DNA of 64,000 nt from Luteibacter jiangsuensis (GTDB lineage Bacteria; Pseudomonadota; Gammaproteobacteria; Xanthomonadales; Rhodanobacteraceae), in NCBI RefSeq assembly GCF_030812295.1, contig NZ_JAUSSK010000002.1:310001-374000 (forward strand). Reading direction: 5' to 3'. The notes under the pieces were generated by a model. The model ran no database searches. It had not been told where the DNA came from and saw nothing but the letters and a program-made list of their open reading frames with translations. A program made the position numbers and the translations under genes. This document shows positions 10,501 to 25,379 of the stretch, piece by piece. Numbering within the stretch: position 1 is the stretch's first letter; each line of letters begins with the position of its first letter.

Positions 10501-10756
10501 GCGCCCGATCCTGATGACCTCGTTCGCTTTCATCATGGGCGTGGTGCCGCTGGTGACCTCGCACGGCGCGGGTGCGGAGATGCGCCACGCGATGGGCGTG
10601 GCGGTGTTCTCCGGCATGCTCGGCGTGACCTTCTTCGGCCTGATCTTCACCCCGCTCTTCTACGTGCTGATCCGCGCGTGGAACGAGCGTTCGGAGGCCC
10701 GCCGCCAGGCGCGCCGCGAGCGCCGTCTCCTCGCCCATGCGGCCCGGGAGTCCTGA
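7565..10756 (+). CDS. mexF: RND multidrug efflux transporter, HAE1 family (MexF-like)
   Basis: This 1063-residue proton-driven inner-membrane pump has the expected full length for the HAE1 family. The start MKIAQYFVERPILAGVLSVLFLIAGGIAVFKLPISEYPEV is the first transmembrane helix and porter entry. GIVVDDAIVVVENVERH carries the paired aspartates of the TM4 proton relay. The string SPDLTMVVHLTSPDNRYDMLYLSNYA is very close to MexF as I remember it. It is the second gene of a four-gene operon with adaptor, outer-membrane factor and SDR. Expected substrates are amphiphilic drugs or metabolites; none can be assigned from sequence. Confidence 0.95.
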   Translation: MKIAQYFVERPILAGVLSVLFLIAGGIAVFKLPISEYPEVVPPTVVVKATYPGANPKVIAETVATPLEEQINGVEGMLYTSSQATSDGSMTLTVTFALGTDLDNAQVQTQNRVAQALPRLPEEVQRLGVTTTKSSPDLTMVVHLTSPDNRYDMLYLSNYARTRIKDQLARLDGVGDVQLFGAGEYSMRIWMNPEKLAIRNLTTGDVIKAVREQNIEVAAGALNAPPGPNTNAFQVNINTRGRLVTEDDFLNIIVRSDPSGSVTHLRDVARVELGSNNYALRSLLNNREAVAIPIFQRPGSNAIAISDEVRAEMALLKKDFPQGVDYTIVYDPTVFVRGSIEAVVHTLFEAIILVVLVVILFLQTWRASIIPLVAVPVSLIGTFAVMYLVGFSLNALSLFGLVLAIGIVVDDAIVVVENVERHIEHGLDPKMATRQAMTEVTGPIVATALVLCAVFVPAAFISGLTGQFYRQFALTIAISTVISAFNSLTLSPALAALLLKGRDEPKDKLTVWMDRSLGWLFRPFNRTFERASHGYVGGVQKILRFSAVVLFIYAGLVALGVFGFMRTPTGFVPPQDKQYLVAFAQLPDAASLDRTEAVIRQMGDIALKDPGTANAIQFPGLSINGFTNSTNSGIVFVALKPFEERRSADLSADAIAARLNAQFASIQGAYMAIFPPPPVNGLGTIGGFRMQIEDRGDMGFEELYKQTQGIIAASQKTPELAHLFTSFQVSVPQFDADVDREKAKSEGIDLGDVFQTLQAYLGSLYVNDFNRFGRTYQVNVSAEPSFRHEPSDVVGLKTRNAAGDLVPLGSFLTMRQTNGPDRVQHYNGYPTAEINGGAAPGYSTGQAQEAMEKLVTSSLPNGMSYEWTELTYQQILAGNTAVLVFPLSVLLVFLVLASLYESLSLPLAVILIVPMVLLSAITGVIVTGGDNNIFTQIGLIVLVGLACKNAILIVEFAREAEIGGMNRIDAVLEAARLRLRPILMTSFAFIMGVVPLVTSHGAGAEMRHAMGVAVFSGMLGVTFFGLIFTPLFYVLIRAWNERSEARRQARRERRLLAHAARES

Positions 10757-10757
10757 T

Positions 10758-12191
10758 ATGAAAATCGTTCTTCGCAGTACCGCGTTGTTCGCGGCCCTCG
10801 TCCTCGCCGGTTGCGCGAGCGTGGGCCCCGACTACCACGCACCCAAGGAAGCGCCGGTGACCTTGCAGGGCGTCGATGCGACGCACCAGAACAACGGCGA
10901 TGTGCAGGCACGTTGGTGGAAGCAGTTCGGCGACCCGACCCTCGACGCGTTGATCGTCCGCGCGGCGCAGGGCTCGCCGGACCTGAAGATCGCGGTGGCA
11001 CGCCTCAACCAGGCGCGTGCCGCGCTCGGCTCGGCGAAATCGCAGCAGATCCCCGACATCGAAACCGGCGTGTCGTACCAGCGTAGCCGCGAGCAGCAGC
11101 CGGGCTTCAGCGACCAGCGCCAGACCGTCACCGCCTACCAGGCCGGATTCGATGCATCGTGGGAACTCGACCTGTTCGGCGGTATCCGCCGGTCGGTCGA
11201 GGCCGCGCGCGCCGACGCCGCCGCCGGCGAGGCGTCGCTGCAGGATGCGCAGGTCACGTTGTTCGCCGAAGTGGCGCGCAACTACTTCGACCTGCGCGGC
11301 ACGCAGCTGCGTATCGACGTGGCCAGGCGGGACATCGCCAACCAGCAGGATTCGCTGAAGGTGATCGCCGCGCGCGTCGAGCTGGGCACCGGGGCCGAAC
11401 AGGACCTCGCCAGCGCGAAGGCGCGGCTTGCCTCGGTGGAAGCGCAGTTGCCCGTGCTCCAGACCCAGGCCAGCGCCGACCAGTTCCGCATCGCGGTGCT
11501 GCTCGGTGCGCGCCCGGGCGAACTCGATGTCGACCTCTCGCCGGCGACCTTCAAGCCCATCGACGTCAGCCTCGCCATCGGCGGTGCCGACGAGGTGTTG
11601 CAACGGCGTCCGGACATCCGCATCGCCGAGCGCGAGCTCGCTGCCGCGAACGCCCGTATCGGCGTGGCCAAGGCCGACTACTTCCCGCACATCACGCTGG
11701 GCGGATTCATCGGCTTCCTCGCCGGCCGCAGCAACGATTTCGGTGGCGCCGACTCGCGCGCCTGGTCGCTCGCCCCAAGCATCTCGTGGTCGGGCCTGAA
11801 CGTGCAGCGCGTGCGTTCGGGCGTGAAGGGGGCGGAGGCACGGGCCGACGAAGCCCGCGCCAATTACGAGCGCACCGTTCTGGCGGCGCTCGAGGACGTC
11901 GACAATTCGCTGGTCGGCTTCAACCAGCAGCGTGAGCGTGTCGAGAAGCTGGTGGTGCAGGCGACGGAGAGCCGCCGCGCGGCTGACCTCGCGAAGATCC
12001 GTTACGACGCCGGCCGCACCGATTATCTCGAACTGCTCGACGCCGAACGTACCCAGCTTTCGGCGGAAGACCAGCTGGCCGAGGCCGAGGCCGCCATCAA
12101 TACCCGCGCGGTGCAGTTGTACAAGGCGCTCGGTGGCGGTTGGCAGGCGTGTGGCGACAACGCGTGCAGCGAGGTTGCGAAGGTGCCATGA
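10758..12191 (+). CDS. RND outer-membrane factor lipoprotein, NodT/OprN family
   Basis: This 477-residue TolC-like outer-membrane channel completes the tripartite pump. The lipobox LVLAGC places the acylated cysteine at residue 19. GPDYHAP follows, a family hallmark, and two repeated OEP halves contain WELDLFGGIRRSVEAARA and RRPDIRIAERELAAANARIG. The ATG at 10758 begins one base after the mexF stop and has GGGAG eight bases upstream. The 3' end overlaps the SDR start as ATGA, so translation is probably coupled. Confidence 0.93.
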   Translation: MKIVLRSTALFAALVLAGCASVGPDYHAPKEAPVTLQGVDATHQNNGDVQARWWKQFGDPTLDALIVRAAQGSPDLKIAVARLNQARAALGSAKSQQIPDIETGVSYQRSREQQPGFSDQRQTVTAYQAGFDASWELDLFGGIRRSVEAARADAAAGEASLQDAQVTLFAEVARNYFDLRGTQLRIDVARRDIANQQDSLKVIAARVELGTGAEQDLASAKARLASVEAQLPVLQTQASADQFRIAVLLGARPGELDVDLSPATFKPIDVSLAIGGADEVLQRRPDIRIAERELAAANARIGVAKADYFPHITLGGFIGFLAGRSNDFGGADSRAWSLAPSISWSGLNVQRVRSGVKGAEARADEARANYERTVLAALEDVDNSLVGFNQQRERVEKLVVQATESRRAADLAKIRYDAGRTDYLELLDAERTQLSAEDQLAEAEAAINTRAVQLYKALGGGWQACGDNACSEVAKVP

Positions 12192-13005: not shown

Positions 13006-14274
13006 TTATTCGGCCCGCAGGGCGTCCACGAAGAAGTCAGGGCCACCGAAATTTCCCGACTTCAGCACCAGACGCAGATCCGCGTGACGTCGTCCCAGAG
13101 CAAACAGCACGGGTACCCCTGGTGCCAACTCATGTCCGATGAGAAAGGCTTCAATCCCCAGCCTGTCGACCACCGCGCCGGACGTTTCGCCTCCCGCGAC
13201 GATCAGGCGCGATAGGCCTTCGGTGGCAAGTCGCAAGGCGATGTCCGCCAACGCATCTTCAAGCACTTCCGATACACGCTTCGCGCCATGTCGTGCCTGA
13301 AGCTCAAGGACTCGATCCGGTGGAGCGCTGGTGGCGATGACTGCCGGACCTTCGGCAAGCCGCCGCCGTGCCCAGGCGGTGGCGTCGGCGATGTCGCCGT
13401 GACCGGAGAGCAGTGCTTCGCTGTCGAGCCTCAGTACCGGCAGGTCACGTTCGGCGATATCGAGCTGCTCCAGGGTGACGGCCGAACAGCTTCCAGCCAG
13501 CACGAGCGACCCGCGCAGGTCGGGGGAGCCCGCCATCGACAATACATCGCTGTCGACGGCGCGAGCCCTCGCCAGGGCGCGCGCGAGCCCGAGGCCCAGG
13601 CCGGATGCTCCCGTCGACAGCGTGTCGTCGAGGGCGACGCGGCCCAGCACTTCCAGGTCGGTGTCGAATACCGCGTCGGCTATCACGCTGCCGACACCCT
13701 GCACGCGCAGCCGGACCAGCTCGGCCCGGACCGCATCATCGCCATCCCGGACGACGGCCAGTGGCAATAGCGCGACGGGCCTTCGGCTCTGGGTGGCCAT
13801 GAGCCTGACGAGGCTGGAGTCGCGCATGGGTGTCACCGGATGATCCTTGAGCGGGCTCTCGTCCAATCGGTCGCCGCCGACGAAGAGATGGCCTTGATAG
13901 ACCGTCCGCCGGTTTCGCGGGAAGGCGGGACAAACCAGTGGCATCGCGCCCGTGCGTTCCGCCAGCGCGTCGGTCACCGGTCCGATATTTCCTCTTGCCG
14001 TCGAATCGAACGTCGAGCACACCTTGAACAACACGTGGGAGGCGCCGCGCGCACGTAGCCATCGCTCGGCGTCAAGCGATTGGCGTACTGCCTCCGCCGC
14101 CGCGATGGACCGGCTTTTCAGCGCCACGACCACCGCGTCGACATCGGGCAGTTCCATATCGTCCGCCGGAACGCCGATGGTCTGGATCACCCGCAAGCCG
14201 TTGCTCGAGAGGGTGCTTGCCAGGTCCGACGCACCCGTATAGTCATCGGCTATCGCGCCCATGCTCAGGCTCAT
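13006..14274 (-). CDS. otnK: 3-oxo-tetronate kinase OtnK (DUF1537 / four-carbon acid sugar kinase)
   Basis: The 422-residue protein matches the two-domain four-carbon acid sugar kinase family. The substrate domain starts MGAIADDYTGASDLASTL, and the nucleotide-binding C-terminal part holds GLSRLIVAGGETSGAVVDRLG. In the characterised pathway OtnK uses ATP to phosphorylate 3-oxo-tetronate at C4 in the cytoplasm. It is the last gene of ltnD-otnI-otnK and overlaps otnI by 4 bp (ATGA). Assignment as OtnK rather than the D-threonate kinase DtnK rests on the neighbouring otnI, otnC and ltnD. Confidence 0.9.
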   Translation of the reverse strand: MSLSMGAIADDYTGASDLASTLSSNGLRVIQTIGVPADDMELPDVDAVVVALKSRSIAAAEAVRQSLDAERWLRARGASHVLFKVCSTFDSTARGNIGPVTDALAERTGAMPLVCPAFPRNRRTVYQGHLFVGGDRLDESPLKDHPVTPMRDSSLVRLMATQSRRPVALLPLAVVRDGDDAVRAELVRLRVQGVGSVIADAVFDTDLEVLGRVALDDTLSTGASGLGLGLARALARARAVDSDVLSMAGSPDLRGSLVLAGSCSAVTLEQLDIAERDLPVLRLDSEALLSGHGDIADATAWARRRLAEGPAVIATSAPPDRVLELQARHGAKRVSEVLEDALADIALRLATEGLSRLIVAGGETSGAVVDRLGIEAFLIGHELAPGVPVLFALGRRHADLRLVLKSGNFGGPDFFVDALRAE

Positions 14275-15059
14275 GATGTCACCTTCGCGCGGTGACCGTA
14301 GGCCGCAAGCCAGCCGAGACCCTCTTCCGTGCGTCCTCGCGGACGGTATTCGCAGCCGATGCAGCCTTCATACCCCAGGCGATCCAGCTCATCGAAGAGG
14401 AAGGGATAATTCAGTTCTTCCCCGTCCGGTTCGTGTCGCGACGGAACACTGGCGATCTGCACATGGCCGAGGTATTCGATCAACCGGCGGATCCGTGTCG
14501 TCACATCGCCGTGGATGATCTGCGCATGATAGATATCCAGTTGCAGCCGTACGTTCGGCAAGCCGAGCTCTTCGATCAAGTGGACGGCGGCGTCCACGTC
14601 GCTCATGAAATACCCCGGCATGTCCCTGCGGTTCACCGGCTCGAGCATGATGTCAACACCCAGTTCCGCGGCTCGCCCAGCGCACCATGTCACGGCATCA
14701 CGATATGCGCGCTCGTGCTCGTCATCGTTCGGCGCGATGCCCGCCATGAGGTGCACGCGCGGCACATTGAGCGCGCGAATGTAAGGTGTCGCGCGTTCGA
14801 AGGCATCGCGCACCTCGTCGGCGCGCGACGGCAAGGCGGCGATTCCACGTTCACCGGCCTCCCATCGGCCCGCAGGCAGATTCATCAGCACGACCGACAA
14901 CCCGGCTCGCCGTATACGTTCGGCCACCAGTCCGGCCGGATGGTCATAGGGAAAGAGGAACTCGACCTGATCGAATCCAGCCGTCGCGGCCGCATCGAAG
15001 CGGTCGAGGAAGGCGTGCTCGTTGAACATCATCGTCAGGTTGGCGGCGAAGCGGGGCAT
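14271..15059 (-). CDS. otnI: 2-oxo-tetronate isomerase OtnI (hydroxypyruvate isomerase-like)
   Basis: The 262-residue TIM-barrel protein of the xylose-isomerase-like superfamily begins MPRFAANLTMMFNEHAFLDRFDAAATAGFDQVEFLFPYDH, the start typical of Hyi/OtnI proteins. Likely metal-site segments are IMLEPVNRRDMPGYF, LQLDIYHAQIIHGD and the terminal IGCEYRPRGRTEEGLGW. OtnI converts 2-oxo-tetronate to 3-oxo-tetronate ahead of the kinase. The gene lies 10 bp after ltnD and overlaps otnK, so all three form one transcript. Hydroxypyruvate isomerase (glyoxylate pathway) is the alternative, but the kinase and aldolase context argues for OtnI. Confidence 0.88.
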   Translation of the reverse strand: MPRFAANLTMMFNEHAFLDRFDAAATAGFDQVEFLFPYDHPAGLVAERIRRAGLSVVLMNLPAGRWEAGERGIAALPSRADEVRDAFERATPYIRALNVPRVHLMAGIAPNDDEHERAYRDAVTWCAGRAAELGVDIMLEPVNRRDMPGYFMSDVDAAVHLIEELGLPNVRLQLDIYHAQIIHGDVTTRIRRLIEYLGHVQIASVPSRHEPDGEELNYPFLFDELDRLGYEGCIGCEYRPRGRTEEGLGWLAAYGHRAKVTS

Positions 15060-15069
15060 ACGGTTTCCT

Positions 15070-15996
15070 CTAAAGGGACAGGTCGAGGCCGGCGATACGC
15101 GCGTACAGGCGCGCCACGGAGCTATCGTCGTCGCGCCCCATGCCGGCCGCCGAGGTCATGATGAAAAGTTGCAGGGCCGCGCTGGCGAGCGGCGCCGGGA
15201 AACTGCTGGCCCGGCCCATGTCCAGAACGATGCCGAGATCTTTAACGAAGATGTCGACGGCACTGAGCGGCCGGTAATCGCCATCGAGGATGTGCGGCAC
15301 ACGGTTCTCGAACATCCAGGAGTTGCCTGCCGAGGCGGTGATGACTTCGTAGACCCGATGCAGGTCGAGCCCTTCGCGCGCGGCGAAGGCGATCGCCTCC
15401 GATGCCGCGGCGATATGCACGCCGGCGAGGAGTTGGTTGACCATCTTGAAGGCTGCCGCCTCGCCAGGCGCCTCGCCCAGGCGATGAAGCGTCGCCGACA
15501 TCGCGTCGAGCGCAGGCGCCGCGCGAGCGAAAGCCTGCTCGGTTCCCGAGGCGAGAATCGTGAGGCTTCCATCGGCGGCGCGCCGCGCGCCGCCGCTCAC
15601 CGGTGCGTCCAGGTAATGGCGACCTGTCGCTTCCAGGCGAGCCGCCATACGGCGCGCGCGATCGGGCGCCATGGTCGCGCATGAAATGAATACCCCGTCT
15701 TCCGCCATGACCGTGGCTATGCCTTCATCGCCGAAAAGGAGCGCCTCGGTCTGGCCCGCGTCGACCACCACGCTCACCACGAGCGTCGCACCGCGCGATG
15801 CCTCGACGGACGAAACCGCCACCTTTCCGCCCAAGGCGGCGAAATCTTCGCGTTTGTTCGGATCCGGGTCGTATCCCGTCACGTCCGCTCCTGCGCGCAG
15901 GAGCGAAGCAGCCATGCCCAGGCCCATGGAACCAAGTCCCGCGACGGCCACTCCCACTCTGTCCCATCCCGTGCTCGCCACCTCGTTCGAATGCAT
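15070..15996 (-). CDS. ltnD: L-threonate dehydrogenase LtnD (beta-hydroxyacid dehydrogenase family)
   Basis: The 308-residue 6-phosphogluconate dehydrogenase-like protein has the NAD motif GLGSMGLGMA near residue 20, the substrate loop PVSGGARRAADGSL, and the catalytic-lysine segment FKMVNQLLAG. It would oxidise a four-carbon sugar acid, most likely L-threonate, at C2 to give the OtnI substrate. The ATG at 15996 follows a purine-rich GGGAGAGAGAGGA tract; an in-frame start 13 codons upstream would run into the operator. It is the first gene of ltnD-otnI-otnK and diverges from otnC across 74 bp. Exact stereochemistry of the substrate is inferred. Confidence 0.85.
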   Translation of the reverse strand: MHSNEVASTGWDRVGVAVAGLGSMGLGMAASLLRAGADVTGYDPDPNKREDFAALGGKVAVSSVEASRGATLVVSVVVDAGQTEALLFGDEGIATVMAEDGVFISCATMAPDRARRMAARLEATGRHYLDAPVSGGARRAADGSLTILASGTEQAFARAAPALDAMSATLHRLGEAPGEAAAFKMVNQLLAGVHIAAASEAIAFAAREGLDLHRVYEVITASAGNSWMFENRVPHILDGDYRPLSAVDIFVKDLGIVLDMGRASSFPAPLASAALQLFIMTSAAGMGRDDDSSVARLYARIAGLDLSL

Positions 15997-16017
15997 TCCT
16001 CTCTCTCCCTGCCGCTC

Positions 16018-16037
16018 TTCTGATTGCGCTACCATAT
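16018..16037. promoter_or_regulatory. Putative LacI-family operator between ltnD and otnC
   Basis: TTCTGATTGCGCTACCATAT resembles the reverse complement of the operator at 23026-23045 at 15 of 20 positions, and the core TGATTGCGCTACCA differs from it by a single base. It lies in the 74-bp divergent control region, 22 bp from the ltnD start and 34 bp from the otnC start, so one bound regulator could repress both directions. Confidence 0.6.
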
Positions 16038-16070
16038 CCGTGTCGCCAACGGAATCATGTGAGCCGAACC

Positions 16071-16721
16071 ATGAGCGAGTCCCGCCTCAGGGAACAGGTC
16101 TGCCTGCTCGCCCGTTCGATGTTCGAACGGGGACTTACCCACGGATCGTCCGGAAATATCAGCGTGGTCCTCGACGACGGTGGCTTGTTGATGACGCCGA
16201 CCGATGCGTCGCTCGGTTTCCTCGATCCAGCCCGCCTGTCGCGATTCGACGCACAGGGCCGCTTCATCGATGGCGACAAGCCCACCAAGGAAGCACCGTT
16301 GCACCGCGCTCTTTACGAATCCCGCAGCGGGTCCAGAGCGGTGGTGCACCTGCATTCCACACACTCCGTCGCCTTGTCCATGCTTCCGGATGTCGATCCG
16401 GCATCCGTGCTTCCACCGTTGACGCCTTACTACGTGATGCGCGTCGGCGATACCGCACTGGTGCCTTACCACCGTCCCGGCGACCCCATGGTGGCGGATG
16501 CCATTCGCGGACTCGCGGGACGTTATGCATCCGTGCTGCTGGCCAACCACGGTCCGGTGGTTGCAGGCACCTCGCTCACCGCGGCGGTCAACGCCATCGA
16601 GGAACTGGAAGAGACCGCGCGGCTCTTCCTCTTGCTGCGCGGTCTTCATCCCCGCACGTTGTCGCCCGCACAGGTGGAGGAACTTAGCCATGTCTTCGGC
16701 AACGATCACCACCACGGCTGA
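16071..16721 (+). CDS. otnC: 3-oxo-tetronate 4-phosphate decarboxylase OtnC (class II aldolase family)
   Basis: The 216-residue class II aldolase/adducin-domain protein has GLTHGSSGNISV near the N-terminus, catalytic-type Glu in KEAPLHRALYESR, the zinc ligands HLHSTHS, and a third histidine in LLANHGPVVAG. In the known pathway OtnC decarboxylates 3-oxo-tetronate 4-phosphate to dihydroxyacetone phosphate and CO2. The ATG at 16071 gives the usual family N-terminus. Unlike its partner genes it is on the plus strand: its promoter backs onto ltnD, and its stop lies 1 bp from the stop of the convergent racemase-like gene. Confidence 0.87.
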   Translation: MSESRLREQVCLLARSMFERGLTHGSSGNISVVLDDGGLLMTPTDASLGFLDPARLSRFDAQGRFIDGDKPTKEAPLHRALYESRSGSRAVVHLHSTHSVALSMLPDVDPASVLPPLTPYYVMRVGDTALVPYHRPGDPMVADAIRGLAGRYASVLLANHGPVVAGTSLTAAVNAIEELEETARLFLLLRGLHPRTLSPAQVEELSHVFGNDHHHG

Positions 16722-16722
16722 G

Positions 16723-17406
16723 TCAGGCAGCGCGTTCCAAATGTCCACGCAAGGTCTCCGCGACGCGCTCCATGCCAAGGCGCGGACTTGTCAGCACCGG
16801 CACGCCGATCGATCCGCCCGGCTTGTCGGCTATGCGGCCCATCGATACCTGCGCGAGCACGATAAGGTCGACATCCTTCGCCAACCCGATCAATGCCCGC
16901 TCGACGATGGCGTCGTGCTCTTCGGTGCGCCCCGCAAGCAAGGCATCGAACGCGCCCTCGCATAGCGCACGCCTTACCTCTATCTGTTTACCACTGTCCC
17001 GGGCGACGCGTTCGATCAGGCGAACCGTGGGATCGAGTGTCGTCTGTACCGTCGCGGCCACCCCGATACGCCGGCCGGTGGCCACGGCACGTTCGGCCAT
17101 GGCGACGTCGATCTTCACAAGGGGCACGGCGAGCAAGGGGCGAACCGCATCCGCGGCCTCCCCCACGGAAGAACAGGCATTGAGGATCATGGTCGCCCCC
17201 ATGTCCTGGCCGATCATCATGTACTGTGCAAGTCGACGGGTCACTTCGGGCGTGACGTGACCGGCTGCCATGGTGTCCTTGAGCAAGCTATCGTCGACGA
17301 GGTTGACCACGCGCACTCCGGGAATGAGTTCCGGCGCGAGCGCGCTCAGGGGTTGCACGGTGACCGGTCCGGTGTGGACGATCACGAGCGTGGTTTGTGC
17401 GGACAT
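16723..17406 (-). CDS. Aspartate/glutamate racemase-like protein lacking the second catalytic cysteine
   Basis: The 227-residue protein has the Asp/Glu/hydantoin racemase fold signature, with Cys78 in ILNACSSVGEAADAV. The second cysteine is not at the usual C-terminal position: residues 184-190 read VLAQVSM around the expected site. Another cysteine, Cys149 in ALCEGAFDALLAG, lies elsewhere. It is therefore unlikely to be a standard two-base amino acid racemase and may act as an isomerase, lyase or hydrolase on an acid-sugar derivative. It is the last gene of the importer operon, 18 bp after the SDR dehydrogenase. The substrate is unknown. Confidence 0.75.
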   Translation of the reverse strand: MSAQTTLVIVHTGPVTVQPLSALAPELIPGVRVVNLVDDSLLKDTMAAGHVTPEVTRRLAQYMMIGQDMGATMILNACSSVGEAADAVRPLLAVPLVKIDVAMAERAVATGRRIGVAATVQTTLDPTVRLIERVARDSGKQIEVRRALCEGAFDALLAGRTEEHDAIVERALIGLAKDVDLIVLAQVSMGRIADKPGGSIGVPVLTSPRLGMERVAETLRGHLERAA

Positions 17407-17424
17407 GACGAATCCTCCGGCCAG

Positions 17425-18315
17425 TCAGGCCTTCACGTATTTGCGCCAGTTATGGACTTCGCGGAAGCCGAGCACATCGCGCGTCTTCTTGTTGGAGAGC
17501 AGGGTCTCGAATTCCTCCATCTGGCCCCTCACCGGTACGTTCGGGTAGTAGCGGCGCAGCAACTCGGCCGTCGGCAAGTCCGATGAGACATCGTTGTTCG
17601 CCGCATTGAAGATCTGGAAGCCCAGGCCGTCCTTCTTGATGCCCAGGTCGACGATCTGGCCCAGGTCACGGGCATCGATATAGCTCCACGCGATGCGCTT
17701 TCGGAAATCCGGCTTCGAGAAGAATCCCGGGAAATTCGCGTACTCGTGAGGCTCGATGACATTGCCGATGCGGATGGCGTAGATGTCCATGCCGGTGCGT
17801 CCGGCGAACGCCTGCGCCGTCTTCTCGTTGCATATCTTCGACGTGGCATAACTGTCGCGCGGATCCACCGGGTAGTCCTCGTCGAGCGGGAAGTACTCGG
17901 GGTCACGTGGGGTATGGTTGAACACAAGACCGTAGGTGGTTTCGCTGGACGCGATGATCACCTTGCGGATGCCCAGCTTCGCGGCCGCCTCGATGATGTT
18001 GTACGTGCCCATGACATTGACGCGGTAAACCTCGTTGTCCGGCACGATCATGATGCGCGGGATCGCAGCGAAATGGACCACGGCGTCGATCGGCTCAGGG
18101 GAGAGGTCCGGATCGAATTCATGTAGCCCGGTGTAGCTCGACAACGCGTTGAACACCTGGCCTGAATCGGTGATGTCGGTGATCAGGGTGCGCACGGCGG
18201 GATTGTCGAGCGGCTTCGTATCGAGATTGAGCACGCGGTAGCCCTGGTCGACCAGGTACTGCACGACATGCCGGCCGGCCTTTCCGCTCCCGCCGGTAAA
18301 AATCACGCGCTTCAT
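17425..18315 (-). CDS. NAD-dependent epimerase/dehydratase-family oxidoreductase (extended SDR)
   Basis: The 296-residue extended SDR has the nucleotide motif TGGSGKAG at residues 7-14, an acidic residue after the second strand (NLDTKP) that favours NAD, and the catalytic Tyr156-x-x-x-Lys160 (YATSK) with SSETTYG upstream. The start is well supported by GAGGAG five bases before ATG. It lies between the sugar-binding protein and the racemase-like gene, so it probably acts on the imported compound, for example oxidising an aldose to a lactone. D-erythronate dehydrogenase DenD is a related possibility, though I cannot confirm it from memory of that sequence. Confidence 0.8.
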   Translation of the reverse strand: MKRVIFTGGSGKAGRHVVQYLVDQGYRVLNLDTKPLDNPAVRTLITDITDSGQVFNALSSYTGLHEFDPDLSPEPIDAVVHFAAIPRIMIVPDNEVYRVNVMGTYNIIEAAAKLGIRKVIIASSETTYGLVFNHTPRDPEYFPLDEDYPVDPRDSYATSKICNEKTAQAFAGRTGMDIYAIRIGNVIEPHEYANFPGFFSKPDFRKRIAWSYIDARDLGQIVDLGIKKDGLGFQIFNAANNDVSSDLPTAELLRRYYPNVPVRGQMEEFETLLSNKKTRDVLGFREVHNWRKYVKA

Positions 18316-18340
18316 GGGTACTCCTCAAGACGGATGGGGG

Positions 18341-19333
18341 TCAGAACTTGTACTGGTCGATGTTGTCAGCGGTGAAGACCAAGGGCTCGCTGAAGATGAT
18401 GACTTTGTCCTTCACGGTGTAGTTACCGAGGCCAGGCACGCTGAACGTGTCGTTCGGTTTCAAAGCGTTGTTGGCCGCTAGCCGGGCCACGTGCATGACC
18501 AGCTGGCCTTCTTTCACCTCGTCCCAGAGCGGACTTGCCTTGATGACGCCGCTCTTGACGTACTGGCGGATGGCGTCTGGGTTGCTGCACCCGGTCACGA
18601 ACACCTTGCCGGTCTTACCCAGTTTCTCCACCGCCGCCGCGGCGCCAACTTCGGAAGCACCATCCGGCGCGATGATCGCCGCCACGTTCGGGTGGGCCTG
18701 GAGAATGTTCAACCCCGCGGTCAGCGACAACGATGGGTTCGACTGCCCGTACTCCGTAGTGACTATTTTCATCTTCGGGTAGGCCGCCTTCATATATGCG
18801 GTCAACGACTTGATCCATTCGTTCTGGATGGTCGCGTCCTTCGTCGAGGAGAGTATCGCCACCTCGGCGTCCGGTGCGATGTACTTCGCCACCGAGTCGA
18901 CGAGCGCCTTGCCGAAGGCGGGATACTCGGTGTTCTGGATAAAGAAGTCTCGTGCATCGGTCGCCACGTCGCTGTCGTAGGAGATCACCTTGATGCCCTG
19001 CTTCATCGCCCGACGCAGGGCCGGAGCGAGCTGGGTGGGATTGTTCGACGTCGTGGTGATCACATCGAACTTGCGGGCGATGAGACTGTTGAAGACGTCG
19101 ACCTGCCCCTGCGCGGATGCCGTCACCGGCCCGGTATAGAGAAAGTCGATGTTCAGTGTCTTCGACGCGGCCTCCGCGCCCTGCTGGTTCGCCTTGAACA
19201 CCGAGAGGCCGACCAGCTTCGGCACCATGGCTACCTTGATGCGCTTGGATGTATCGACGGTCTGGGCCGGGACGGATGTGGCCATGGTCAGGACGATGGT
19301 GGCCAACGCAAGCATGTGACGTTTACGGATCAT
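18341..19333 (-). CDS. Sugar ABC transporter periplasmic substrate-binding protein
   Basis: The 330-residue precursor has a signal peptide (MIRKRHMLALATIVLTMATSVPA, residues 1-23) and a type 1 periplasmic-binding fold of the rhamnose/AI-2 (RhaS/LsrB) group. Recognisable parts are KVAMVPKLVGLSVFKANQQGAEAA, VISYDSDVATDARDFF and AAIIAPDGASEVGAAAAVEKLG. It captures the substrate in the periplasm for the two permeases encoded just upstream. The ATG overlaps the permease stop (ATGA) and has AGGAGG close by. The ligand is probably a tetronate or a sugar that yields one. Confidence 0.92.
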   Translation of the reverse strand: MIRKRHMLALATIVLTMATSVPAQTVDTSKRIKVAMVPKLVGLSVFKANQQGAEAASKTLNIDFLYTGPVTASAQGQVDVFNSLIARKFDVITTTSNNPTQLAPALRRAMKQGIKVISYDSDVATDARDFFIQNTEYPAFGKALVDSVAKYIAPDAEVAILSSTKDATIQNEWIKSLTAYMKAAYPKMKIVTTEYGQSNPSLSLTAGLNILQAHPNVAAIIAPDGASEVGAAAAVEKLGKTGKVFVTGCSNPDAIRQYVKSGVIKASPLWDEVKEGQLVMHVARLAANNALKPNDTFSVPGLGNYTVKDKVIIFSEPLVFTADNIDQYKF

Positions 19334-20406
19334 TGCTCCCTCCTGTAACGGGTACGACGGACGAGTGCGCGCAGGCGTGCGCCTAAGCCGCCGCCGCGTG
19401 TGCTGAACAGGTTGCGGACAGCGATCGAGGCGATCAGGATCGCGCCGGTCAGCATGGACGTGACCATGTCGGACAAGCCGGCGATCAGCAGGCCCTGGCG
19501 CATGAAGCCCAATAGCAGCACGGCTACGATCACGCCCCCCATACTGCCTTCACCACCGAAGATGCTGACGCCGCCGAGCACGACCATCGCGATCGTCGTC
19601 AACAGCAGTACGTCGCCCATGTCCGGCCGTGCCGCGCTGTAATAGGCGGAAAGGACCAACCCGGCCAGCGCGGCCATGGTGCCGCTGATCACATAGGCAC
19701 CCGCCAGCACGCGGGGAACGCGGATGCCGGAGTAACGCGCGGCTTCCGCGTTGTATCCCACGGTGACGAGCTTGCGGCCGAACGCGCTGCGTGAAAGAAG
19801 CAACCAGAAGACCACCGCCAGCGGGACGAAGAGCAGCAATTGGTATGGAACCTGGAGGCTGCCGATGGGAAGTGCCCCGGCGCCCAGCGCATTGAAGGCG
19901 TCCGGAAAGCCGGAGGGTGGCGAATCACCCGCGACGGCCACGGCCGCACTGCCGTAGATGAAGCTGCTGGCCAGGGTCGCGATCAGCGGTTCGATGCGCA
20001 GCTTTACGATGATCGCGACGTTGATGGCTCCCAGCATGCCACCCAACACGAGCCCGATAAGCGAAGCGATCCAGATATCCAACCCGTAAGTTGCCCACAG
20101 CTGCGCGGCGACCACCGCGGCGAGGCTCGCGGTCGCACCGACCGACAGGTCGATGCCGCCGGTGAAGATCACCAGGGACAGGCCGAGCGCGACCAGGCCG
20201 AACGGGAGGAAATTGCCGGTCATGCCGAGCAGGCCCGATACATCGTTGAAGAATCCGGGCACACCAACCCCGAAGCCGACCAGCACGGCGACGAGTAGCG
20301 CGGCCAGCGACGACTCCCAGCCGCCCATCGGCAGCAGGCGGCGACGCCGCGTGGGTGTCACGATGTTGGGCTTGGTGGCGTGCGTGTCGGCTGGATAGGC
20401 GCTCAT
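19330..20406 (-). CDS. Sugar ABC transporter permease (second)
   Basis: The 358-residue inner-membrane protein of the BPD_transp_2 (ribose/rhamnose) family has about nine hydrophobic segments. The loop motif GGIDLSVGATASLAAVVAAQLW and the end GFMRQGLLIAGLSDMVTSMLTGAILIASI are typical of RbsC-like permeases. The protein has a Lys/Arg-rich cytoplasmic N-terminus (ATKPNIVTPTRRRRLLP) and C-terminus. It overlaps the first permease gene and the binding-protein gene by 4 bp each. Confidence 0.92.
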   Translation of the reverse strand: MSAYPADTHATKPNIVTPTRRRRLLPMGGWESSLAALLVAVLVGFGVGVPGFFNDVSGLLGMTGNFLPFGLVALGLSLVIFTGGIDLSVGATASLAAVVAAQLWATYGLDIWIASLIGLVLGGMLGAINVAIIVKLRIEPLIATLASSFIYGSAAVAVAGDSPPSGFPDAFNALGAGALPIGSLQVPYQLLLFVPLAVVFWLLLSRSAFGRKLVTVGYNAEAARYSGIRVPRVLAGAYVISGTMAALAGLVLSAYYSAARPDMGDVLLLTTIAMVVLGGVSIFGGEGSMGGVIVAVLLLGFMRQGLLIAGLSDMVTSMLTGAILIASIAVRNLFSTRGGGLGARLRALVRRTRYRREQ

Positions 20407-21395
20407 GCCTGCGCACCCCGGCGACGGAACGCACCCTGCACGGCGGCGAGGATCATCAAGCCCTCGCCCGCGGAATACCAGATTGGCGGAACATGGAGGA
20501 AAACCAGCGCCGTGAGCACCACGGAGAGGAACAGGCTGCCGAGCACGGTGCCAATCAGGTTGCCACGCCCCCCGGCGATCGCCGTGCCACCGATCAACGA
20601 GACCGCGATCGACTGCAACTCGATGTGGTCGCCCGTGCCGGCGGTTACCGTGGCCGACCCTGTGTAGCAGAGGAACATGAGCCCGGAGAAGGCGGCCAGC
20701 ATGCCTGCGAGGGCATAGACACGCACGCGTACCCAGGCCACCGGCAGACCCGCGGCATAGGCGGCGGTCGCGTTGTTACCGACTGCCAGGATCGCACGGC
20801 CGAATGCGGTGTGCCGAAGCATGTACCAACACAGGGCAAGGACGACCATGAGCACGATCGCTGGCGTCGGCAGGGGTATGGCACCGAGGAGGTTGCCGTT
20901 GCCGAAGGCAGCCCAGGCTGCCGGCACGGCGTCGACTTGCGTGCCGTCCGAGTATAGGAAGGTCAGGCCGCTATACAGGCTGTACGTACCCAGCGTCACG
21001 ACGATCGGCGGAATATCCAGTGCCGCCACGAGCACGCCGTTCACCGAACCGAGCACCATCCCCATGCCGACAGCCAGGGGCAAGGCAAGCGACAACGACA
21101 GACCATGCGTCTGCGCCAGCAGGCCGCAGACCATGGCTGAAAGGCCGAGCACCGGGGCCACCGAAAGATCGATGCCGCGCATCGAGATAACGAGCGTCTG
21201 ACCCAGCGCGACCAGTGAAAGAACCACGGAATTGAGCAACATGAAACGCAGGTTCTGGGCGCCAAGGAAGTCGTGGTTGAGTATTCCGACCGCCAGCGTC
21301 AGGCCAACGGTCGCCACGACCAGGGTCGCCTCGCGCGTCATTGCGAAGCGTGGCGAGGCCATGCGTTTGTAGGTGGATATCGTGGCTGTGTTCAC
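20403..21395 (-). CDS. Sugar ABC transporter permease (first)
   Basis: The 330-residue permease of the same RbsC-like family contains the conserved loop RGIDLSVAPVLGLSAMVCGLLA and the motif LIGGTAIAGGRGNLIGTVLGSLFLSV near the C-terminus. With the neighbouring permease it forms a heterodimeric channel, as in rhamnose and AI-2 importers that have two different permeases. It overlaps the ATPase gene stop by 4 bp. Confidence 0.92.
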   Translation of the reverse strand: MNTATISTYKRMASPRFAMTREATLVVATVGLTLAVGILNHDFLGAQNLRFMLLNSVVLSLVALGQTLVISMRGIDLSVAPVLGLSAMVCGLLAQTHGLSLSLALPLAVGMGMVLGSVNGVLVAALDIPPIVVTLGTYSLYSGLTFLYSDGTQVDAVPAAWAAFGNGNLLGAIPLPTPAIVLMVVLALCWYMLRHTAFGRAILAVGNNATAAYAAGLPVAWVRVRVYALAGMLAAFSGLMFLCYTGSATVTAGTGDHIELQSIAVSLIGGTAIAGGRGNLIGTVLGSLFLSVVLTALVFLHVPPIWYSAGEGLMILAAVQGAFRRRGAQA

Positions 21396-22966
21396 AGCGT
21401 CGCCTCATCCCTTGGCTTGCCGAGATATGAAGCGCTGACACCTTCGGGGGTGATCTGCGTCCCGCACAGTTCCGCGACCAGCTCGCCTTCGTAGATGGAC
21501 AGCACGCGGTCGCACAGGCGAACCAGTTCCTCGGTTTCCGACGAAATCACGAGGACGGCCATGCCATCGCGGGCCATCGCCTCGATCAGCTCATAGATTT
21601 CCTCCTTCGATCCGACATCCACGCCCCGTGTCGGTTCGTCGAGGATGGCGACCTTGGGACCGGTGGCTATCCACTTGCTGAAGACGACCTTCTGCTGATT
21701 GCCGCCGGAGAGCTCTCGCAGTGGCTGATCCAGCCCCGCGCAACGCACCCGGAATTCGCGTACGGCGTCGGCCCCGAGGCGGGTCTCGTCGTCGTCGCTC
21801 AACAGGCCCGCGGACTGGCGCACGCGCTCGAGCAGCCCCGAGGTGATGTTCTGCGCGATGCTCATCGACAGGACCGCACCATGTCGCGCACGGTCCTCCG
21901 GGACGTAGACCAGTCCCTTGCGGATGAGTCCGTGACAGGGCTTGGCCGTGATGTCCTCACCGGCCAGACGCACCGCGCCACTGGTGGGGCGGCGGACACC
22001 GAAGATGGTCTCGGCGATTTCGGTGCGGCCGGCGCCAACCAGCCCGGCCAGTCCAAGGATCTCGCCCCGGCGCAGGGTGAACCCGATGCGGCGGAAGACC
22101 GGCTCACTGGCGAGATTCTCGACTTCGAGCACGGCGTCGTCGGTGGCGTGACTTTTCTCGCGACGGGGAATGTCACGTATCGTGCGGCCCACCATCTTCG
22201 ACAGCAGGCGCGTGCGATCGAAATCGCCGCGCTCCACGCAGTCTACCGGCCGCCCATCCCGCAGTACGACGATGTCGTCGCTGATCGACATGACTTCTTC
22301 GGTGCGGTGGCTGATGAAACTCAACGTGCAACCGTCGGTGGCCAGCCGACGCATGATCTTGAACAGGGTATCGACTTCGTACGCGGTCAGGGGCGAGGTG
22401 GGTTCGTCGAACAGAATGATCCTGCAGTCATGCAGCAGGGCTTTCGCGCACTCGATCAGCTGCAACTGCGCGATGCTCAACGTCTTTGCGCATGTATCGA
22501 TGTCGATGTCCAATTCGAGCATGTCCAATACCGTGCGCGAACGACGGCGTACGTCCTTCCAGTCGACATGCCGCAACCAGGTGCCGGCCATGGGCAGGCG
22601 CCCCAAGAACATGGTTTCCGCCACGGTGAGTTCGGGTAGCAGCATCGGTTCCTGTGGCACGAGATGGATCCCATGCGCATGGGCTGCGTGCGGGGAAGCC
22701 AGGTGCAGCGGTCCCCCGTTGAGACTCAGTGTTCCCGCGCTCGGCTGGAGCTGCCCTGCGAGGATGCGGAACATCGTCGATTTGCCTGCGCCGTTCTCGC
22801 CCATGAGGGTGAGGATGCGACCGGGCTTCAGTTGCAGGTCCACGCCACCAAGTACCTCCACCGGGCCGAAACGCTTGACGATGCCATGCGCGGCAAGCAC
22901 GGCCCGCGCCGCGGGTTTGTCTATCGCCGGGGCGTGTGCGTGCGAAGCGTTGGACAACTGGATCAC
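21392..22966 (-). CDS. Sugar ABC transporter ATP-binding protein (two fused ABC domains)
   Basis: The 524-residue ATPase of the RbsA/MglA type has a first domain with Walker A GENGAGKST and a divergent second domain with GLVGAGRTEIAETIFG. The second domain's LRELSGGNQQKVVFSKW signature and ILDEPTRGVDVG Walker B are intact. It energises import through the two downstream permeases. I place the start at the GTG at 22966 because GGAGG lies four bases upstream; the ATG 11 codons earlier has no ribosome site. It is the first gene of the six-gene importer operon. Confidence 0.92.
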   Translation of the reverse strand: MIQLSNASHAHAPAIDKPAARAVLAAHGIVKRFGPVEVLGGVDLQLKPGRILTLMGENGAGKSTMFRILAGQLQPSAGTLSLNGGPLHLASPHAAHAHGIHLVPQEPMLLPELTVAETMFLGRLPMAGTWLRHVDWKDVRRRSRTVLDMLELDIDIDTCAKTLSIAQLQLIECAKALLHDCRIILFDEPTSPLTAYEVDTLFKIMRRLATDGCTLSFISHRTEEVMSISDDIVVLRDGRPVDCVERGDFDRTRLLSKMVGRTIRDIPRREKSHATDDAVLEVENLASEPVFRRIGFTLRRGEILGLAGLVGAGRTEIAETIFGVRRPTSGAVRLAGEDITAKPCHGLIRKGLVYVPEDRARHGAVLSMSIAQNITSGLLERVRQSAGLLSDDDETRLGADAVREFRVRCAGLDQPLRELSGGNQQKVVFSKWIATGPKVAILDEPTRGVDVGSKEEIYELIEAMARDGMAVLVISSETEELVRLCDRVLSIYEGELVAELCGTQITPEGVSASYLGKPRDEATL

Positions 22967-23010
22967 GAAACCTCCGGGACATGAGGAGCGCGGAACCACA
23001 ATGCGTCCGG

Positions 23011-23039
23011 ACTATAGGCCGCCAGAAATGATAGCGCAA
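23011..23039 (-). promoter_or_regulatory. Predicted sigma-70 promoter of the importer operon
   Basis: On the minus strand TTGCGC (plus coordinates 23034-23039) and TATAGT (23011-23016) are separated by exactly 17 bp, giving a weak -35 and a strong -10. The -35 lies inside the palindromic operator, the expected geometry for repression by a LacI-family protein. Confidence 0.6.
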
Positions 23040-23045
23040 TCATTT
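23026..23045. promoter_or_regulatory. LacI-family operator palindrome in the importer/regulator control region
   Basis: AAATGATAGCGCAATCATTT is a 20-bp palindrome with only one mismatched pair (positions 8 and 13) around a central GCGC, the usual layout of LacI/GntR-type operators with a central CG step. A related site is found between ltnD and otnC, and a half-site GCGCAATCAT recurs at 23125-23134. Confidence 0.7.
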
Positions 23046-23070
23046 TTATGCCTTGAGCGCCAACAACTTA

Positions 23071-23085
23071 TTGTGCGATGCACAA
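23071..23085. promoter_or_regulatory. Second perfect inverted repeat upstream of the LacI-type gene
   Basis: TTGTGC and GCACAA flank GAT as a perfect 6-3-6 inverted repeat, between the operator at 23026 and the regulator start at 23184. It could bind a different protein or mark the regulator's own promoter. The sequence differs from the main operator. Confidence 0.4.
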
Positions 23086-23183
23086 GTATACGTGCTCGAC
23101 CGGGCTGGTCAGCGGCGCTGCGTTGCGCAATCATCCCGGTTCGATCAGGGTGGTAGCGCGATCACCGAAGGAGCCGGTCACAC

Positions 23184-24206
23184 ATGAGTCCCACGAAAAT
23201 GCCCACCGAGCGGACCGTCACGCTGAAGGACGTCGCCGAACACGCGGGCGTCTCTCCCATGACCGTGTCGCGTGCATTGAACAAGCCCGCCACCGTATCG
23301 GAAACCCTGCGCGCACGTATTGGCGCTTCGGTGGAATCCCTCGGGTATGTGCAGAATCTTGTTGCGGGCGCCTTGGCCTCCGCAGGTTCGAACGTGATCC
23401 CTGTGATCGTGCCTTCGCTGTCGAACTCCGTGTTCGTCGAAGTGATTGCGGGTATCCAGGACGTCGCGCAGGCAGCCGGATATCAACTGATGCTCGGCAA
23501 CACCGAATACGACCTCGATCGCGAGTACGGGGCGGTGTCCACCTTCCTCGGCTGGTCCCCACCGGGCATGATCATCGCTGGCATGCGTCATCTCGACCGC
23601 ACACGCAACCTGCTCAAGCGCTGGGGCAAGCCCGTGGTGGAAATGATGGAGTACGGAACACAGGCCATCGACATGAATGTCGGCCTTTCCCATTACAAGG
23701 CCGGCGAGACGATGGCGACACATCTCGTCACGCAGGGTTACCGCGAGATCGTTTTCATTGGCTGCCGCATCCAGGCGGATTATCGTGCCGCGCAGCGCTA
23801 CAAGGGCATGGACCGGATCCTGGCACGGCATGGTTTGCATCGGCGAGAGCCCATCTCATACGACGGCCCATCGAACTGGGCGCTCGGCGGCGACGCATTG
23901 ATGGACGTCCTGGAAGCGACGCCGAAGGTGGATGCGATCTTCTTCGCCAATGACGATCTCGCCGTGGGCGCCATCCTGCGCGCGCAACGCGAAGGCGTTG
24001 CCGTTCCGAAGCGGGTGGCCATCGCGGGATTCAACGGCCTGGGCCTGGCCGATCTCGTCCAGCCCGGCCTCACCACGATCATGTCTCCACGACTGGAAAT
24101 AGGCCGCGTCGCTGCCCGACAACTTCTCGACCGTTTCGCCGGGCACACGCCGGCGAAACGGCGTGTGGACGTTTCGTTCCAGTTGCAGGTGCGCGGCAGT
24201 ACCTGA
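23184..24206 (+). CDS. LacI-family transcriptional regulator of the acid-sugar island
   Basis: The 340-residue protein has the LacI helix-turn-helix and hinge (VTLKDVAEHAGVSPMTVSRALNKPATVSETLRARI, residues 12-46). A periplasmic-binding-like effector domain follows, ending TTIMSPRLEIGRVAARQLLDRFAG, most like the GntR (gluconate) branch. It diverges from the ABC importer operon and is the likely repressor acting at the operators near 23.0 kb and 16.0 kb, released by a pathway metabolite. The ATG at 23184 follows GAAGGAG by ten bases. Confidence 0.92.
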   Translation: MSPTKMPTERTVTLKDVAEHAGVSPMTVSRALNKPATVSETLRARIGASVESLGYVQNLVAGALASAGSNVIPVIVPSLSNSVFVEVIAGIQDVAQAAGYQLMLGNTEYDLDREYGAVSTFLGWSPPGMIIAGMRHLDRTRNLLKRWGKPVVEMMEYGTQAIDMNVGLSHYKAGETMATHLVTQGYREIVFIGCRIQADYRAAQRYKGMDRILARHGLHRREPISYDGPSNWALGGDALMDVLEATPKVDAIFFANDDLAVGAILRAQREGVAVPKRVAIAGFNGLGLADLVQPGLTTIMSPRLEIGRVAARQLLDRFAGHTPAKRRVDVSFQLQVRGST

Positions 24207-24215
24207 AAATGGCGT

Positions 24216-25379
24216 TCAGCGCGAAATGATATGCGCGAACCACTGCCAACCACGCAGCTTGGCGGTGATCAACTTCACGCAGGTGAGCATCGGCACGGCC
24301 AGCAGTGCGCCGGGCACGCCCCAGAGCCAGCCCCACACCAGCAACCAGAGCAGGATCGCCACTGGACTCAGCCGCGAGCGGCGCCCCTGCAACATGGGCG
24401 TGATCATGTTGCCTTCGACCGCCGTGATGCCCGCGAACGTGGCGGCTGGGAGCAAGGCGGGGCCAAGCTCCTGGAAGTGCAACGCGCCGACGATGGCGAG
24501 CACGGTCGTGGTGGTGATGGCGCCGACGTACGGAATGAAGTTGGCGATCGTGGCCACGGTGCCCCATAACAGCGGATCGGGTACGCCGTAGAGGTAAAGC
24601 ATGCCCGCGGTGACGAGGCCGAGCGTGACATTGATCGCCGCCGTGAGCAGGAGGTAGCTCGACACCTCCACCTGGATGCTACGTACGATGCTTACCGTGT
24701 GTCGCTTATAAGCGAAGGTGGGCGATATCTCGACGGCGCGCCGAAGGATCTCGTCACCGTAGACGAGGAAGAAGAACACAAGCAAGGCGACCGTCAACAC
24801 GCTCGCCAGTACCTTCGGCGCGCCCGCGAGGATGTCCCATGCCGTGAAGGCGAAGTTGTTGGGACTCTGCGGCACGTTGCGCGCCATCGTCCCGCCGACC
24901 AGGTTCTGCGTCGCCCGGCTGGCGGCCTCGATCTGCTGGGTCATCGGCTTGATCTTCGGTGCGAAGGCACGCATCGCCGTCGGCGCCTCGTGGAACCAGT
25001 TGAGCGCGGGCTCCGAAAGCGTCGTCACGGCCGATACGAGACCGAAGCCGAGCAGCACCATCACCGTCACCGCGGACAACCAGCGCGGTATGCGCAGGTG
25101 CGCGGCGGCGGCGACGATGGGGTTGAGCGCGAGGCCGATGAACCCCGCGAGCACGAGCGGTACCAGCAACGACTTGCCGATGGCCACCGTGTAGATCGCC
25201 GCCAGCAGGACGAGGCCGGTCAGCGAAATGCGGATCGCGCGGAGGTTGCGCGACATCCGCCGGCTGCTCCGCCCGCTTGCGGGCGTCCGGCGTGGGGGCA
25301 CGGCGATCGTGGAAACGGCGGCACCCGGTGCCGCCGTCGAAGGGACCGGCGTGGGCAGTGGACTGGGAACGTCGCTCAC
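24216..25379 (-). CDS. AI-2E family transporter (PerM/YdiK-type membrane protein)
   Basis: The 387-residue polytopic membrane protein of the AI-2E/PerM family has an N-terminal pair of helices near RISLTGLVLLAAIYTVAIGKSLLVPLVLAGFIGLALNPIV and the conserved C-terminal blocks GTVATIANFIPYVGAIT and LQGRRSRLSPVAILLWLLVWGWLWGVPGALLAVPMLTCVK. The function of most members is unknown; some export small molecules or ions. A Pro/Ser/Arg-rich cytoplasmic tail of about 45 residues comes first. Translation starts at a GTG that overlaps the stop of the upstream small gene. It converges on the LacI-type gene with a 9-bp gap. Confidence 0.88.
   Translation of the reverse strand: MSDVPSPLPTPVPSTAAPGAAVSTIAVPPRRTPASGRSSRRMSRNLRAIRISLTGLVLLAAIYTVAIGKSLLVPLVLAGFIGLALNPIVAAAAHLRIPRWLSAVTVMVLLGFGLVSAVTTLSEPALNWFHEAPTAMRAFAPKIKPMTQQIEAASRATQNLVGGTMARNVPQSPNNFAFTAWDILAGAPKVLASVLTVALLVFFFLVYGDEILRRAVEISPTFAYKRHTVSIVRSIQVEVSSYLLLTAAINVTLGLVTAGMLYLYGVPDPLLWGTVATIANFIPYVGAITTTTVLAIVGALHFQELGPALLPAATFAGITAVEGNMITPMLQGRRSRLSPVAILLWLLVWGWLWGVPGALLAVPMLTCVKLITAKLRGWQWFAHIISR

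Follow-up and report, generated by a model that had tools for sequence, protein, structure and literature searches.

Tetronates, the four-carbon sugar acids, are degraded by two described routes, both of which pass through 2-oxo-tetronate. The four-step pathway for L-threonate and D-erythronate uses LtnD or DenD, OtnI, OtnK, and OtnC (Zhang et al. 2016, as cited in PMC12540250). The three-step pathway for L-threonate uses LtnD, 2-OtnK, and 2-OtnC (Guo et al. 2024, as cited in PMC12540250), and in the account given by PMC12540250, 2-OtnK and an F_bP_aldolase-type 2-OtnC act on 2-oxo-L-threonate. That source also describes L-threonate as a breakdown product of ascorbate in plants. Here, we examined a 64,000-nucleotide stretch of the Luteibacter jiangsuensis genome (the window; contig NZ_JAUSSK010000002.1, positions 310,001 to 374,000), in which genes of the four-step pathway lie beside genes for an ATP-binding cassette (ABC) importer, an extended short-chain dehydrogenase/reductase (SDR), a racemase-fold protein (RacX), and a LacI-family regulator. 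The explanation that we favor for this island, and regard as fairly probable, is a single LacI-controlled regulon in which the importer, the SDR, and RacX would feed LtnD, OtnI, OtnK, and OtnC.

The island comprises 11 uninterrupted open reading frames (ORFs) between positions 13006 and 24206 in an ORF survey of the window, and every gene named in the initial annotation was recovered among them. Transcription on the minus strand proceeds through the ABC ATPase, two permeases, the binding protein, the SDR, and racX, followed by ltnD, otnI, and otnK. The "two opposed operons" of the initial annotation point in the same direction, since the six-gene importer operon (22963 to 16723) and ltnD-otnI-otnK (15996 to 13006) are both on the minus strand. 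otnC, on the plus strand, is divergent from ltnD and convergent with racX, the ends of otnC and racX lying one base apart; lacI, also on the plus strand, is divergent from the ABC ATPase gene. Judging from the spacing, each run of genes is presumably a single transcript. The features are as follows.

13006 to 14274, minus strand: otnK, 3-oxo-tetronate 4-kinase (DUF1537); NF043035, 514.6 bits, cutoff 350
14271 to 15059, minus strand: otnI, 2-oxo-tetronate isomerase; NF043033, 359.4 bits, cutoff 325
15070 to 15996, minus strand: ltnD, L-threonate dehydrogenase; NF043037, 421.3 bits, cutoff 350
16021 to 16034, minus strand: putative LacI operator TGGTAGCGCAATCA, between ltnD and otnC; similar sites in relatives
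16071 to 16721, plus strand: otnC; NF043034, 320.2 bits, cutoff 250 (scanned from 16086)
16723 to 17406, minus strand: racX, one-cysteine Asp/Glu-racemase-fold protein; PF01177, 48.7 bits, with cysteine pattern and fold
17425 to 18315, minus strand: extended SDR, NAD-type by motif; PF01370
18341 to 19333, minus strand: sugar-type periplasmic binding protein, RhaS/LsrB-like; below both NCBIfam cutoffs
19330 to 20406, minus strand: ABC permease 2; PF02653, 138.6 bits
20403 to 21395, minus strand: ABC permease 1; ORF, 31% identical to permease 2
21392 to 22963, minus strand: ABC sugar ATPase with two cassettes; PF00005 in two stretches; the ORF may start at 22999
23029 to 23042, plus strand: putative LacI operator TGATAGCGCAATCA, before the importer operon; similar sites in relatives
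23151 to 23164, plus strand: putative LacI operator TGGTAGCGCGATCA, just before lacI; pattern search
23184 to 24206, plus strand: lacI-family regulator, GntR/IdnR-like; NF052440, 366.8 bits, cutoff 400

The start of otnC is likely at 16071, as read from the sequence, upstream of the 16086 used for searches. The ltnD ORF has a possible start at 16035; the start at 15996 keeps the putative operator upstream of the gene.

LtnD, OtnI, OtnK, and OtnC occur together in the island and each exceeds its NCBIfam equivalog cutoff, in agreement with the earlier claim of a complete gene set leading from L-threonate to dihydroxyacetone phosphate (DHAP). By homology, these core enzymes would convert L-threonate successively to 2-oxo-tetronate, 3-oxo-tetronate, its phosphate, and DHAP. 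The core is ordinary, a good further member of the known four-step pathway. In contrast to the three-step pathway, the window carries the four-step genes: the island OtnC belongs to Aldolase_II, and the island holds no F_bP_aldolase-type partner for the kinase, whereas such a pair is present in related loci L119 and L135. Beyond the four-step pathway as described, the island also encodes an ABC importer of the sugar type, RacX, an SDR distinct from DenD, and a LacI regulator whose operator-like sites are shared by module and core.

The regulator carries the LacI helix-turn-helix domain (PF00356, 61.7 bits, cutoff 27) and is nearest to GntR of Pseudomonas aeruginosa, one of the gluconate/idonate regulators, although it scores below the cutoff for that model. 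Near-palindromes occur between genes at 23029 (TGATAGCGCAATCA), 23151 (TGGTAGCGCGATCA), and 16021 (TGGTAGCGCAATCA, reversed), preceding both operons and lacI in the window. With one mismatch allowed, 3 sites occur in the window where 0.13 would be expected, and 1 of 100 shuffles reaches 3, a statistic that is not independent because the pattern was derived from those same sites. When 17 related loci were searched with the symmetric pattern TGRTAGCGCYATCA (R to Y at position 10; two mismatches allowed), 42 sites were found against 5.0 expected from first-order resampling (ten per locus), the loci including close relatives that are not independent of one another. Thirty-two of the 42 fall in zones upstream of island genes, where approximately 0.2 would be expected, and at least one site lies in such a zone in 16 of the 17 loci; L033 has two sites, both outside the zones as defined. 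In 9 of the 17 loci (L014, L015, L017, L018, L052, L055, L058, L059, and L134), sites stand before the ltnD/otnK/otnC genes as well as before the importer (or racX) genes, as they also do in the window, L009, and L010; L013, L023, and L051 have sites on one side only. With the palindrome found ahead of each operon and of lacI here, and upstream of island genes in 16 of the 17 related loci, these results suggest that the island is one LacI regulon, with the repressor predicted to bind at the putative sites. They also argue against an alternative in which an importer operon for some unrelated sugar happens to adjoin an ordinary L-threonate operon, which we judge improbable on this and other evidence given below.

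The importer, SDR, and RacX genes recur together in distant lineages. For these comparisons, 76 SDR relatives were considered, with the distant L084 (28%) dropped before neighborhood counts and a codon-usage filter applied to gene calls; the plasmid loci and L144 were hand-picked from match lists and are not a random sample. Among 89 locus rows with an SDR, 23 (21 distinct, as L140 repeats L119 and L155 is identical in sequence to L012) hold LtnD, OtnK, or a Deinococcus-type kinase as well. Of 31 sampled genomes with both RacX and an OtnK-family gene, counting that of the window, 11 place the two within 15 kb of each other (approximately 0.28 expected). In Deinococcus taeanensis, which belongs to a different phylum, identity to the island proteins is 82.6% for the binding protein, 68% for the SDR, and 70% for RacX, and the genes that come next encode a DUF1537 kinase and an aldolase of the class II fructose-bisphosphate aldolase (FBA) type, which fits the three-step pathway. 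By resemblance, this pair looks like 2-OtnK and 2-OtnC. The union of the same unit with a different tetronate-like ending again speaks against an importer for an unrelated sugar. Relatives of the kinase-aldolase pair (approximately 39 to 41%) occur with an LtnD relative (243.8 bits, cutoff 350) in Arthrobacter locus L138. In Rhodococcus antarcticus, importer genes, a distant SDR (31%), and an LtnD relative (37%; 210.4 bits, cutoff 350) are neighbors of RacX, the kinase, and the aldolase. Because the unit ends in look-alikes of either known route, both of which proceed via 2-oxo-tetronate, it probably feeds this intermediate. Overall, the importer-SDR-RacX module is real, recurs across phyla, and appears to be coregulated with the core.

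The R. antarcticus locus (L135, 171 to 2479) holds, near RacX and the kinase-aldolase pair, a further DUF1537 kinase and a PdxA gene. The further kinase scores below the D-threonate kinase cutoff (81.9 versus 450 bits), and the locus is a possible multi-tetronate plasmid cluster.

Several results weigh against the favored explanation. The SDR is not bound to tetronates, since 58 loci that carry it and span 9 kb or more show no LtnD, OtnK, or 2-OtnK-like gene. In the phylum sample, 21 genomes (counting that of the window) have both the SDR and OtnK, and the two lie within 15 kb of each other in only 4. Of the 18 distinct loci with the SDR and an OtnK-type kinase, 6 lack RacX (L012, L015, L017, L018, L026, and L134). 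Loci from Caballeronia and Paraburkholderia carry the whole importer-SDR-RacX unit and show no OtnK in the stretches covered. These Caballeronia and Paraburkholderia loci, like the frequent occurrence of SDR relatives without tetronate genes, favor an importer operon for some unrelated sugar. No LtnD match was found on the D. taeanensis plasmid, a weak result limited to that plasmid and lacking a positive control, and no lactonase is apparent in the island.

The importer consists of an ATPase, two permeases, and a binding protein. It had been described as of the rhamnose/autoinducer-2 (AI-2) type, and this stands as a resemblance: the best NCBIfam matches of the binding protein are RhaS (241.3 bits; TIGR02637, cutoff 342.25) and LsrB (224.5 bits; NF011937, cutoff 384). 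It falls below both curated cutoffs, and we reject the identification of the importer as either a rhamnose or an AI-2 importer. The likeness to RhaS and LsrB is a further point for an unrelated substrate. However, two importer types whose binding proteins are approximately 30% identical carry the same cargo of SDR, LtnD, OtnK, OtnC, and often RacX, which counts against chance adjacency. Importers of the island's type mostly carry neutral sugars.

The SDR has Asp32 after the second strand and Ser124, Tyr156, and Lys160 invariant in 33 sequences, a motif set that we take to mark an NAD-type extended SDR. Its closest relatives are in two Luteibacter genomes (93 to 94%). Among NCBIfam models, GalE scores best (62.9 bits), followed by Azf (61.3 bits), and DenD (NF043036) reaches 27.9 bits against a cutoff of 325. 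The initial annotation had given the two extra enzymes no place in the described pathway, and this holds for both as far as seen, the SDR falling far short of DenD by score. Uronate dehydrogenase (UDH; PDB 3rft), also an extended SDR, aligns at 28% identity over 236 columns (BLASTP) and shares the RIG...EP..Y stretch. Arg174 of UDH, presumably a carboxylate- or substrate-binding residue, falls opposite Ala193 of the island SDR in this alignment of only 28% identity, and a uronate substrate is for that reason not favored. Azf and UDH oxidize aldoses to lactones. Because they are the best catabolic resemblances, they point weakly to an aldose 1-dehydrogenase. A structure model (mean pLDDT 89.4) matched mainly nucleotide-sugar epimerases (Foldseek, VIA-align) and does not separate the hypotheses; UDH is absent from the 50 VIA-align rows listed, an absence that carries no weight.

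Alternatively, the SDR could be an additional tetronate dehydrogenase, analogous to DenD but acting on a different stereoisomer, with the importer carrying tetronates, so that the island would contain no sugar step and would simply serve a wider range of acids. DenD is likewise an extended SDR, and its model weakly matches the island protein. Several further points fit a DenD analogue: the regulator resembles those for gluconate and idonate, the island has no apparent lactonase, the SDR could be the oxidizing step on the D. taeanensis plasmid where no LtnD was found, and DenD is described as oxidizing D-erythronate in the four-step pathway (PMC10580937). Set against these are the large shortfall from the DenD cutoff, the 58 SDR loci without a tetronate gene, and the neutral sugars that importers of this type mostly carry. 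In addition, locus L144 (G249) has RacX, an importer, and the SDR beside a DenD (505.7 bits, cutoff 325), OtnI, a major facilitator superfamily (MFS) carrier, OtnC, OtnK, and LtnD, and three Labrys loci pair the SDR with a DenD relative 46% identical to that of L144. Because L144 holds a true DenD beside the SDR, the SDR is not simply DenD, an identity that we reject; the broader idea of an analogue for another stereoisomer we consider somewhat unlikely. The L144 genome is of the same class and, by resemblance to the Caballeronia loci, probably from the Burkholderiales.

Other genes recur beside SDR relatives. A tartrate dehydrogenase is found in L144 (5842 to 6933; TIGR02089, 548.6 bits, cutoff 470.4), and others 68 to 88% identical to it lie in L013 (14741 to 15787), L030 (8849 to 9907), L052 (12961 to 14019), L055 (13386 to 14432), and L131 (2154 to 3242); L-tartrate and L-threonate are both described as ascorbate derived in plants (PMC12540250). 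Three loci with the SDR and LtnD (L026, 11856 to 12914; L033; and L083) also encode a hormone-sensitive-lipase family hydrolase (391.9 bits, cutoff 380). Its N terminus resembles, by eye, a signal peptide, and the enzyme could act on the substrate as an esterase or lactonase. A second beta-hydroxyacid dehydrogenase that is not LtnD (131.8 bits, cutoff 350) adjoins the SDR in the RacX-less loci L015, L017, L018, and L026 (10909 to 11805 in L026), and L014 and L063 hold both it and RacX. An aldo/keto reductase recurs beside some relatives as well, and we assign none of these four enzymes a place in the pathway. In Sinorhizobium/Ensifer and related rhizobia (L038 to L049 and L056), an SDR relative is found next to a nusG-like gene, with a tuf-like gene where the stretch reaches far enough (both named by eye), away from tetronate genes.

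RacX was called racemase-like in the initial annotation, which holds for its fold but not for its catalytic residues. When the position of the second catalytic cysteine was matched to that of allantoin racemase by profile alignment, the first cysteine (Cys78) was kept in 55 of 55 aligned rows (51 distinct sequences), whereas the second was present in none, its place being taken by Gln (51 rows) or His (4 rows); in row L112, the next residue is a Cys. Island-type RacX thereby differs from the Asp/Glu/hydantoin racemase superfamily, and a two-base (two-cysteine) racemase is rejected. A PDB sequence search with RacX alone gave no match at an E value of 0.001, and the RacX profile gave weak racemase matches only.

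A single catalytic cysteine would fit one-base proton transfer, and RacX might accordingly substitute for OtnI as a 2-oxo/3-oxo-tetronate isomerase. RacX, OtnK, and OtnC do occur with no OtnI match in L125, L013, and L139. Nevertheless, we think this substitution unlikely: 10 of the 12 distinct loci with the SDR, RacX, and an OtnK-type kinase hold OtnI too, which weakens it, and the window adds one more; RacX also stands beside the kinase-aldolase pair that resembles the three-step route, in which OtnI is not required. In L139, on an Arthrobacter plasmid, RacX (7950 to 8718) directly precedes OtnK and OtnC and is split over two frames, or the sequence contains an error.

Returning to the favored regulon, the importer would take up a small sugar-like compound, which the NAD-dependent SDR, with RacX in some lineages, would convert to a four-carbon acid or oxo-acid. 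LtnD would then oxidize, OtnI would isomerize the 2-oxo to the 3-oxo form, OtnK would phosphorylate, and OtnC would decarboxylate to yield DHAP. The feed would join at or above 2-oxo-tetronate, a direction of flow and an entry point suggested by the gene content. Within this scheme, we weakly favor the SDR as an aldose 1-dehydrogenase forming a lactone and RacX as a one-base isomerase or epimerase of oxo-tetronate. Xylonolactone is described as opening slowly and spontaneously, with the same suspected for D-threono-1,4-lactone (PMC10079672). The longer upstream route from a sugar or lactone that had been proposed from the sequence gains ground from the putative operator that module and core share and from the recurrence of the module across phyla beside either tetronate route; its substrate, an aldotetrose or tetronolactone, is only weakly favored.

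Within Luteibacter, the island is accessory, being present in 4 of 23 genomes. We located two flanking markers named by eye, a NodT-like outer-membrane efflux-type lipoprotein (10737 to 12191) and an AI-2E-type permease (24216 to 25379), in these 23 genomes. The gap between them is 12.0 to 13.7 kb in 4, the same 4 that carry the SDR, 7.3 to 7.5 kb in 2, and 0.8 to 3.3 kb in 16, and the markers are on separate contigs in 1. Across the family, the SDR is found at an E value of 1e-80 in 5 of 233 genomes, own genome included. Because the flank-to-flank gap varies among the 23 genomes and is largest in SDR carriers, the island was apparently inserted at a site open to other cargo as well, and the site looks like an insertion hot spot. 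Two Luteibacter genomes carry a different insert there (L141, 2730 to 7265; L142, 2210 to 6754), with one open frame of approximately 1,510 residues.

Among the matches listed in a search of the open-access literature, no description of this gene set was found. It is possible, though we hold it only tentatively, that the genes represent a widespread new pathway for a natural four-carbon sugar or lactone, such as a tetrose from plant or glycan breakdown. Such a pathway, equally tentative in its parts, would combine an importer resembling LsrB and RhaS with two new enzymes, an SDR that oxidizes aldoses and a one-cysteine racemase-fold oxo-tetronate isomerase or epimerase, moved by horizontal transfer into either tetronate route. 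If the unit does feed the tetronate routes, its binding protein and putative operator would offer direct handles for finding the inducer, and it would name a missing sugar-level entry to tetronate catabolism and would give functions to two unassigned enzyme families, the SDR and RacX.

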